The notes beneath the pieces were generated by a model that was not told where the DNA came from, searched no databases, and saw only the letters and a list, made by a program, of their open reading frames with translations. Positions 23,389-31,286 of a stretch of 40,096 bases of DNA are shown here, in pieces. The translations under genes were made by a program, and so were the position numbers. Within the stretch, counting starts at the first letter, position 1. Each line of letters starts with the position of its first letter. Where the stretch lies: positions 1 to 40,096 of the forward strand of contig JAJXUE010000029.1 of assembly GCA_021783135.1 (NCBI GenBank). The letters are read 5' to 3'. The DNA comes from Bacillota bacterium. Lineage in GTDB: Bacteria > Bacillota > Desulfitobacteriia > Desulfitobacteriales > JAJXUE01.

Positions 23389-24781
<1,393 letters not shown>

Positions 24782-24802
24782 ACGTGTTCGGAAAGGTTTG
24801 GC

Positions 24803-25021
24803 ATGCTCCCAATGTGTTTAGGTTTTGAGTTAGAACGGGCAGAAGAAATATTAACTTCGGCCGGACTTACGGTGCAAGTGACAGTAACCCGACCACCGCG
24901 CGGAGGTGAACCGCAAGGCGTTGCCAGAGTGGTGCGGCAGAGGTTAGACCCACAAGGTTGCTGTCAGCTTGTTGTGGCGTATAGGGATTATACCGGTTCA
25001 CGTGCTGCCCATGCTGATTGA
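24803..25021 (+). CDS. Small PASTA-like protein
   Basis: A 72-residue protein with ATG 24803 after GGAAAGG. Residues 8-60 (ELERAEEILTSAGLTVQV, then GVARVVRQRLDPQGCCQLVVAY) follow the PASTA pattern: helix, AGL turn, strand, and a VxRQxPxxG-like ending. PASTA domains usually bind wall fragments on the outside of Ser/Thr kinases and penicillin-binding proteins, yet this one has no signal peptide or membrane helix, so it should be cytoplasmic. Its function is unknown. It starts 21 bases after frr and overlaps the following ferredoxin gene by 11 bases, so the three are probably one transcript. Confidence 0.65.
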   Translation: MLPMCLGFELERAEEILTSAGLTVQVTVTRPPRGGEPQGVARVVRQRLDPQGCCQLVVAYRDYTGSRAAHAD

Positions 25022-25184
25022 TGCGACGTGTATCCAGTGTGGTATTTGTACAGACTCTTGTCTGCTTGGAGCAATTGTTTGGCAAGAGAAATACCTGATA
25101 ACAGAAGAGTGTACCGAATGCCGGATATGTATAACTGCGTGCCCAGTGGGAGCTATTCAGGCCCAGACTAAATTAACCCCCTGA
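25011..25184 (+). CDS. 2[4Fe-4S] ferredoxin, 57 residues
   Basis: The protein starts MLIDATCIQCGICTDSC and has two complete clostridial cluster motifs: CxxCxxCxxxC at residues 7-17 and CxxCxxCxxxCP starting in EECTECRICITACP. This is the standard small electron carrier of anaerobes. ATG 25011 lies within the end of the PASTA-like gene; no separate ribosome binding site is evident, so translation is probably coupled. A longer in-frame reading from 24969 would overlap further. The TGA stop at 25182-25184 lies within a strong terminator hairpin. Its partner enzyme is not evident; the nearby IspG, an iron-sulfur enzyme that needs electrons, is a possible user. Confidence 0.82.
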   Translation: MLIDATCIQCGICTDSCLLGAIVWQEKYLITEECTECRICITACPVGAIQAQTKLTP

Positions 25185-25197
25185 AGAGGGGGTTTTT
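25175..25197 (+). terminator. Terminator ending the frr-ferredoxin transcript
   Basis: AACCCCCT (25175-25182) pairs with AGGGGGTT (25187-25194) around a 4-base loop, running into TTTTT. The ferredoxin stop codon overlaps the stem and loop. Confidence 0.92.
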
Positions 25198-25237: not shown

Positions 25238-26035
25238 TTGCTCGATATTAAGCAGTTCTGGTCAAAATTAACGAAAAGCAAACCTGTGGGAGTCCATACT
25301 GAGGGTGAGTTGCTTGAGGCGCTTGATCGGAGCAAACTACCCCAACACCTGGCAATAATTATGGATGGTAACGGGCGTTGGGCCAGACGTAGAGGCATGC
25401 CCCGGGGTTTAGGTCATCGCGCCGGAGTAGAAGCTCTGCGTTCTACGGTTAAAGCCTGTTCTAATTTGGGTGTCAAGGTGCTCACTGTGTATGCCTTTTC
25501 AACCGAGAATTGGAAACGTCCCCGGGATGAAGTGAATATTTTGATGAACCTCCTCATTGAATATTTACAAAAAGAAGTTGACGATTTGCATCGCAACAAG
25601 GTTCACATCCAAGCTATTGGCTGTATACATGATCTCCCTCAGGAAGCGCAAGTAGAATTAAAACGGGCGACCGAATTAACTTGTAAGAATAATGGGTTGA
25701 TTTTAAATCTAGCCTTGAACTATGGCGGGCGCGTAGAAATCTTAGATGCAACCCGCAAGATTGCTGCGCTGTTAAAGCAAGGTGAATGTCGTTTAGAAGA
25801 TATCAATGAAGAATTTTTCGGCAGATTCCTCTACACAGGCGGGATGCCTGACCCAGACTTGCTGATTCGCACCTCGGGTGAGATGAGGGTAAGTAACTTT
25901 TTGTTGTGGCAGTCGGCCTACACGGAATTTTATGTTACGGAAACTTTATGGCCTGATTTTAGTAAGGCACAACTGTTTAAGGCTCTACTGGTTTATCAAC
26001 AACGTGAACGTAGGTATGGAGCCCTCAAATCTTAA
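25238..26035 (+). CDS. uppS: Isoprenyl transferase (undecaprenyl diphosphate synthase)
   Basis: UppS extends farnesyl diphosphate with isopentenyl units in cis to make the C55 lipid carrier for peptidoglycan. The 265 residues have HLAIIMDGNGRWARRRG (catalytic Asp, Asn and Arg), GHRAGVEALR, YAFSTENWKRP, LNLALNYGGR, PDPDLLIRTSGEMRVSNFLLW and TEFYVTETLWPDF. About 40 residues precede the usual start of the fold. TTG 25238 is preferred since TTGGAGG lies 7 bases upstream; the frame opens at 25196 within the preceding terminator. cdsA follows 15 bases later. Confidence 0.95.
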   Translation: MLDIKQFWSKLTKSKPVGVHTEGELLEALDRSKLPQHLAIIMDGNGRWARRRGMPRGLGHRAGVEALRSTVKACSNLGVKVLTVYAFSTENWKRPRDEVNILMNLLIEYLQKEVDDLHRNKVHIQAIGCIHDLPQEAQVELKRATELTCKNNGLILNLALNYGGRVEILDATRKIAALLKQGECRLEDINEEFFGRFLYTGGMPDPDLLIRTSGEMRVSNFLLWQSAYTEFYVTETLWPDFSKAQLFKALLVYQQRERRYGALKS

Positions 26036-30206: not shown

Positions 30207-31286
30207 ATGGACGCAATTATCCGGAGAAAAACACGCCAAATTATGGTTGGCGCGGTTCCGATCGGCGGAAGTGCACCAATCGTAGTGCAGTCGATGACCA
30301 ATACGGACACCAGAGATATCCAGGGTACCTTGGGGCAAATAAACGCTTTACACCGGGCCGGGTGTGAAATTGTCAGGTTAGCGGTGTTAGACCTAGATGC
30401 TGCCAGGGCGCTGCAGACCATCAAACTCAGTTCTCCCGTGCCCTTGATTGCCGACATTCATTTTGATTATCGGTTGGCCCTAGAGGCTCTAGCCGCCGGT
30501 GTGGAAGGCTTACGCTTAAATCCGGGTAATATCGGTGCGGCGTGGAAAGTCAGAGAGGTGGTTCAGGCCGCTAAAGCAAGCAGGATTCCTATTCGTGTCG
30601 GCGTTAATTCCGGCTCGATTGAAAAAGAAATATTGGCCAAATATGGTGGACCCACTGCCCAAGGGATGGTTGAAAGCGCCTTGAAGCACATTCGAATCCT
30701 GGAAGAATTAGATTTTGCTGCAATTAAGGTTTCGCTGAAAGCCTCGCATGTTCCGTTAATGCTTGCTGCATACAGGCTGCTGGCTGGTGAGGTCGATTAC
30801 CCGCTCCACTTAGGGGTAACTGAAGCAGGTACGGTAACTTCAGGCACGATTAAGTCTGCGGTGGGCATCGGCGCCCTGCTGGCTGAAGGAATCGGCGATA
30901 CCATACGGGTATCCTTGACAGGAGATCCCATTCCTGAGATTAAAGTGGCCTATGCAATTCTCCAATCATTGGGCCTGCGGCAGCGTGGCGCGGAAATAAT
31001 TGCCTGTCCTACGTGCGGCAGAACTCAAATTGACTTGACCCAACTAGCGGAACAAGTCGAAGCCAAATTGGCAAACATTACTAAACCAATTAAAGTTGCC
31101 GTGATGGGGTGTGTTGTTAACGGCCCGGGGGAAGCCAGGGAAGCGGACATCGGTGTGGCTGGCGGTCAGGGTGAGGGACTTATCTTTCGCAAAGGTGAGA
31201 TTGTCGCTAAAGTCCCGGAAGATCAGCTGCTTCAAGTTCTATGTCAGTACATTGATCAGCTTAACGACGAGTCCGATACTCTTTAA
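30207..31286 (+). CDS. ispG: 4-hydroxy-3-methylbut-2-enyl diphosphate synthase (IspG)
   Basis: IspG is the [4Fe-4S] enzyme of the MEP pathway that converts MEcPP to HMBPP and needs a ferredoxin or flavodoxin. The 359 residues have a TIM-barrel part (VQSMTNTDTRDI, ADIHFDYRLAL, RLNPGNIG, RVGVNSGSIEKE, HLGVTEAGT) and the iron-sulfur part with Cys267 and Cys270 (CPTCGRTQIDL), Cys302 and Glu309 (GCVVNGPGEAREADIGVAGG). All cluster ligands are present. It is the two-domain bacterial form. The start is ATG 30207, 6 bases after rseP. Confidence 0.97.
   Translation: MDAIIRRKTRQIMVGAVPIGGSAPIVVQSMTNTDTRDIQGTLGQINALHRAGCEIVRLAVLDLDAARALQTIKLSSPVPLIADIHFDYRLALEALAAGVEGLRLNPGNIGAAWKVREVVQAAKASRIPIRVGVNSGSIEKEILAKYGGPTAQGMVESALKHIRILEELDFAAIKVSLKASHVPLMLAAYRLLAGEVDYPLHLGVTEAGTVTSGTIKSAVGIGALLAEGIGDTIRVSLTGDPIPEIKVAYAILQSLGLRQRGAEIIACPTCGRTQIDLTQLAEQVEAKLANITKPIKVAVMGCVVNGPGEAREADIGVAGGQGEGLIFRKGEIVAKVPEDQLLQVLCQYIDQLNDESDTL

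Follow-up and report, generated by a model that had tools for sequence, protein, structure and literature searches.

The small gene that follows frr in the DNA analysed here (the window, 40,096 nt of contig JAJXUE010000029.1) belongs to what sequence comparison indicates to be a real, widely conserved and apparently unstudied gene family in a core neighbourhood, namely a family of predicted cytoplasmic single-PASTA proteins that we place in the frr unit and that has a ferredoxin cistron as an optional companion. At least 130 of the 398 sampled genomes of the phylum have a PASTA-like gene following frr, and the presence of a stand-alone cytoplasmic PASTA-like family on this scale suggests that it performs a core job. 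Because its place and its signature are so constant, the family should be recognizable in other genomes and directly testable.

We found no study of this family among open-licence PubMed Central papers, and none of those searched dealt with more than two of PASTA domain, ferredoxin, frr and uppS, or brought ferredoxin, pyrH, frr and uppS together. In the same papers, PASTA domain together with ribosome recycling factor led only to a kinase phosphoproteome, and single or cytoplasmic PASTA only to work on kinases and their phosphatase.

In the window, pyrH, frr, an ORF of 72 aa, a ferredoxin ORF of 57 aa and uppS follow one another on the same strand (Table 1), and uppS is followed by cdsA, dxr, rseP and ispG. 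An earlier note on this DNA had described a PASTA-like ORF overlapping a complete ferredoxin ORF by 11 bases, the pair being seated between frr and uppS with ispG about 5 kb downstream, and this description was borne out by the coordinates, by the Fer4 match of the second ORF, by the RRF and Prenyltransf matches on either side and by the GcpE match downstream. The gap between frr and the PASTA-like gene is 21 bases, and the start codon of uppS is uncertain (TTG at 25196, 25211 or 25238). A hairpin resembling a terminator carries the ferredoxin stop codon at its tip, and its stem encodes the last residues of the protein, Thr-Pro. The arrangement is also seen in loci L003 and L004, from the two other genomes of the same family that were searched. 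In both of these loci, inverted repeats made up of GAATTC/GACTCC-like units lengthen the gap behind frr (1151-1263 in L003 and 1934-2082 in L004).

Table 1. Features of the frr-uppS region and ispG in the window
Feature	Coordinates	Strand	Remarks
pyrH, UMP kinase	23503..24240	+	Amino acid kinase family match; putative member of the frr unit
frr, ribosome recycling factor	24224..24781	+	Pfam RRF 3.4e-72; start within pyrH
Likely ribosome binding site GGAAAGG of PASTA-like gene	24790..24796	+	Read directly from sequence
PASTA-like (predicted cytoplasmic) protein gene, 72 aa, ATG start, TGA stop	24803..25021	+	
2[4Fe-4S] ferredoxin gene, 57 aa, ATG at 25011, TGA stop	25011..25184	+	
Intrinsic-terminator-like hairpin	25175..25194	+	8 pairs, loop 4, then T run
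uppS, undecaprenyl diphosphate synthase	25238..26035	+	Pfam Prenyltransf; putative next transcription unit
ispG (GcpE)	30207-31286		~5 kb downstream of the pair

The two genomes of the same family that were searched (G001 and G002) both carry the two genes in the same order and place, with 52-55 % identity to the window for the PASTA-like protein and 61-63 % for the ferredoxin. A profile built from these three PASTA-like proteins found relatives in 97 of the 398 sampled genomes, and a profile built from 31 members matched 243/398 at E<=0.01, a total to which long frames, probably PASTA kinases, contribute. The 131 loci examined further comprise all listed matches to the 31-member profile down to E 7.0e-7 (130 genomes) and G002, and were selected by similarity of the small protein alone, not by neighbourhood. 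Outside this set are 113 genomes with matches of E 7e-7 to 0.01, including frames of 607-654 aa that are probably PASTA kinases, and an actinobacterial record (L173), which was left out of the counts as its match spans only 22 residues. In all 131 loci frr precedes the small gene and shares its strand, a pyrH match was found in 130, and uppS lies downstream in 129, the exceptions being L111, at a contig end, and L114 (genome G114). As the pair recurs in both same-family genomes and the PASTA-like gene is behind frr in every locus, the gene pair is not due to chance. The ten named frr-linked loci come from Thermincola ferriacetica (three MAGs), Thermincola sp. (one), Desulforudis (one), Syntrophomonadaceae (one MAG) and Firmicutes/Bacillota MAGs without a genus name (four). 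No relative of the window protein was found in viral contigs, and no gene fusion naming a partner was found; inspected by eye, frames of at least 100 aa around the domain resemble read-through from upstream within the frr region.

Twenty genomes without a profile match were viewed via frr, with small ORFs judged by eye, and uppS was in reach in 19. It had been supposed that frr and uppS are usually adjacent in Bacillota, and this holds for part of the phylum, since in nine of the 19 the two genes are 46-197 bases apart and no ORF between them reaches 40 aa. A PASTA-like ORF behind frr was seen in two others (L174 and L180) and a PASTA-like ORF together with a ferredoxin in L185; in L192 the ORF is of unclear type.

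The window protein, taken alone, gave no Pfam or NCBIfam match at E up to 10, as might be expected of a spurious ORF or a functionless remnant. However, its recurrence behind frr in 130 of the 398 sampled genomes with a conserved signature already refutes this explanation, the probability of which we regard as practically nil. The family as a whole was more informative. PF03793, the PASTA domain, was matched at E<=1 by 22 of 31 members (best 1e-6) and at E<=0.1 by all four further homologs scanned, of which only L172 (27.4 bits) exceeds the gathering score of 23.2. In the other direction, the family profile matches PknB PASTA chains, the best at 2.2e-10 for the whole chain.

The prediction obtained with AlphaFold2 from 11 sequences has the order helix-strand-strand-strand, i.e. 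one helix on a three-stranded sheet (mean pLDDT 82.7, pTM 0.66). Foldseek placed PonA2 first, through its PASTA domain (E 0.074, probability 0.95), and no match reached E<=0.001. With VIA-align, 24 of the best 25 rows were PASTA kinases or PASTA-bearing PBPs with Z of 3.5-6.3, and the next unrelated rows were at 3.3; the program warns that a Z under 8 may reflect only a common arrangement, and the highest Z here is 6.3. Structural support for a PASTA fold is hence moderate, and the PASTA-like fold of the earlier note is supported to this extent. We take the protein to be PASTA by descent because the PASTA-like predicted fold coincides with the PF03793 matches and with the matches of the profile to PknB chains. 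The exception among the best 25 rows was chain J of 8s7v, from a methyl-coenzyme M reductase activation complex, in which residues 310-369 were matched with Z 5.7 and an rmsd of 2.4 over 51 residues. The matched region is part of a chain of 499 residues and, with a Z under 8, is a lead only; it is possibly another intracellular use of a PASTA-like fold. No open-licence PubMed Central paper searched linked PASTA to the MCR activation complex.

The established role of PASTA modules is to sense peptidoglycan outside the cell. The proteins described here share with the PASTA domains of PknB/PrkC kinases and PBP2x a helix followed by three strands and the N-terminal PDVxGxxLxEA motif, but differ in consisting of a single stand-alone module without a membrane segment or signal. 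In none of the 131 members does the mean hydropathy of any 19-residue stretch exceed 1.6, in accord with the earlier statement that the PASTA-like protein lacks an export signal, and at most 11 residues precede the domain in 124/131, a figure that depends on a rough choice of start codons by rule. They also have a signature of their own, T-x-P-P (residues 29-32 in the window protein) and R-V-V-R (residues 42-45). The T is present in 77 % of members and the two R in 81-93 %, with or without a ferredoxin, and R[VIL][VILA]R is kept in 101/131. When the PASTA-bearing kinase and PBP frames of the same genome as the window were searched for [RK]V[VIL]R, the pattern turned up only near the kinase N-terminus and in none of the PASTA regions. 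What is new for a protein of the PASTA kind is thus its predicted place in the cell, the cytoplasm, and the signature.

The ferredoxin of the window includes two CX2CX2CX3C motifs (C7-C10-C13-C17 and C34-C37-C40-C44) and gives a Fer4 match of 5.4e-10, with both Fer4 and Fer4_7 above the Pfam cut-off, so the earlier description of it as a complete 2[4Fe-4S] ferredoxin stands. Its score against the NCBIfam FdxA_fam equivalog is 51.1 bits, under the curated cut-off of 65 bits. Its length and motifs mark it as an electron carrier of the clostridial 2[4Fe-4S] type, with cluster binding and electron transfer predicted, and it differs from others of this type in being encoded behind frr and a PASTA-like gene and, in the window copy, in having Leu rather than the usual Pro after the first motif. 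It also differs from the other clostridial-type ferredoxin of the window genome, which is on C35; further small ferredoxins are present in this genome.

A 2[4Fe-4S] ferredoxin lies between the PASTA-like gene and uppS in 77 of the 131 loci and is thus optional. Re-examination of the remaining 54 revealed no missed intact ferredoxin and a single decayed remnant (L100), which has lost most of the first-cluster cysteines and lies behind an intact PASTA-like gene. On a tree of the 131 loci built from pyrH and frr (FastTree, two proteins, without a support test), at least 20 changes in ferredoxin presence are required, compared to 34-47 in 100 label shuffles. The ferredoxin therefore appears to have been inherited but repeatedly lost or gained, and these changes, together with the remnant in L100, argue that the PASTA protein is independent of it.

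This bears on the possibility that the PASTA-like protein and the ferredoxin constitute one redox device, in which the former docks or regulates the latter and genomes with only the PASTA-like gene use a ferredoxin encoded elsewhere. The coupling of the two genes is tight: 60 of the 77 locus ferredoxins start with ATG (a rough choice), and of these 29 share bases with the PASTA gene and three abut it, while 53/60 are 54-57 aa long; the locus ferredoxins are also acidic, with a mean charge of -9.7. However, the PASTA proteins encoded next to a ferredoxin are no more basic than the rest (mean charge -0.4 vs +0.8) and have an unchanged signature, and charge complementarity between the two proteins was dropped as it found no support. 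Two of the genomes without a profile match (L175 and L191) have a 2[4Fe-4S] ferredoxin alone between frr and uppS, with no PASTA-like ORF, and in L100 it is the ferredoxin that decayed while the PASTA-like gene remained intact. We consider a device of this kind improbable, though the close ferredoxin in 77/131 loci could point to a joint redox role.

Terminator-like sites were counted in 129 loci, the two without uppS being dropped, and compared to single-base shuffles (one per locus for the gap between frr and the PASTA gene, three for the other gaps). No such site was found between frr and the PASTA gene in any of the 129 loci, where the gap has a median of 7 bases (range -11 to 203). In 76 of 77 loci (vs 3.0 in shuffles) a terminator-like hairpin separates the ferredoxin from uppS. 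Where there is no ferredoxin, such a hairpin separates the PASTA gene from uppS in 34 of 52 loci (vs 2.0 in shuffles), leaving 18/52 in which no terminator was found before uppS. Genome G114 is the single genome seen in which frr and uppS are apart. It has tsf-pyrH-frr-PASTA on one contig, with an aspartokinase-like ORF after the PASTA gene by our own reading, and uppS-cdsA-dxr on another; there is one profile match at E<=1e-4, and the PASTA gene stays with frr. As the hairpin pattern, the short gap behind frr and the arrangement in G114 all fit it, we propose two adjacent units, the frr unit also comprising the PASTA gene and the ferredoxin, and on this evidence the PASTA-like gene is better assigned to frr than to uppS and ispG. 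Nevertheless, the order frr-PASTA-uppS is kept in 129/131 loci and, given the 18 loci without a terminator, there may be a link to uppS.

The earlier note had suggested that the ferredoxin could serve IspG, and in the fuller form of this idea it is a dedicated donor for IspG (and IspH), docked by the PASTA-like protein, with the pair serving the downstream isoprenoid genes. IspG and IspH do need an electron transfer protein, e.g. ferredoxin or flavodoxin, according to PMC8617995, and uppS-cdsA-dxr-rseP-ispG lie downstream both in the window and in ten of ten named frr-linked loci. The same paper states that IspG orthologs work with several electron transfer proteins. The ten named loci include one from Desulforudis (L171) that has no ferredoxin, and ispG was present in all of 24 genomes lacking an intact ferredoxin at the locus. 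These were hand-picked and comprise 21 of the 54 PASTA loci without a ferredoxin and three genomes without a profile match. In 20 of them ispG is 3.8-7.1 kb downstream, and in the remaining four it is on another contig (two) or far away (two). Hence, proximity to ispG, which is also seen where the ferredoxin is missing, is hardly informative about the ferredoxin. A ferredoxin belonging to an isoprenoid (uppS-ispG) unit should have no terminator between it and uppS, but a terminator-like hairpin is seen there in the window and in almost all of the 77 loci. The second clostridial-type ferredoxin on C35 and the 54 loci with a PASTA protein and no ferredoxin also weigh against the proposal. An IspG partnership was dropped as the leading idea on the evidence of the hairpin, the second ferredoxin and the distribution of ispG; in its dedicated form it is unlikely to be correct, though IspG may be one client of the ferredoxin among others.

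A different role would be to sense cell-wall precursors in the cytoplasm, in lipid-linked form or e.g. as UDP-MurNAc-pentapeptide, and so to couple wall synthesis to uppS or translation. The PASTA-like predicted fold and the presence of uppS downstream in nearly every locus are compatible with it. In PrkC, whose PASTA region is extracellular, this region binds muropeptides by means of Arg500, according to PMC3601408, and the two strongly conserved arginines found here may correspond to it, though their positional equivalence is putative. Against this, the terminator-like sites mostly part the PASTA gene from uppS, and in G114 uppS is elsewhere while the PASTA gene is with frr. A sensor of this type is a possibility to which we give a minor share of the probability.

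The interpretation that we favour, tentatively and at a little under an even chance, is that the PASTA-like gene is an accessory cistron of the tsf-pyrH-frr unit that encodes a soluble cytoplasmic adaptor or sensor acting near translation, and that the ferredoxin is a general carrier. The PASTA-like gene would be co-transcribed with frr, and its small product would be soluble, stay in the cytoplasm and have only one PASTA-like fold in a stripped-down form. The T-x-P-P/R-V-V-R signature would form a binding site for a partner, protein or RNA, in or near the translation machinery, such that the adaptor or sensor is produced in step with the ribosome recycling factor. The ferredoxin encoded behind it probably takes part in general low-potential electron transfer rather than serving one dedicated client. 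Operon position alone is no proof of a function in translation. Small uncharacterised cistrons in a translation operon have a precedent in ylxQ and ylxR of the nusA-infB operon, which likewise encode short conserved proteins, though the operon is a different one. A more ambitious version, which we regard as highly speculative, would be a separate intracellular PASTA system of Bacillota, in which a one-module protein made with the ribosome recycling factor uses its pair of arginines to read a cytoplasmic wall precursor or the ribosomal state. In many genomes it would also pass a redox signal to the coupled ferredoxin or receive one from it, so that growth, wall supply and electron state would be tied together.

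Four further genomes of the same order (L177, L178, L179 and L182), all among those without a profile match, have a strongly diverged small ORF behind frr, at approximately 2057-2255 in frr-oriented coordinates. The PDVxG part has been lost and a GDLRVARI-like (RVxR-like) part is kept, and this ORF is perhaps a re-shaped member of the family.
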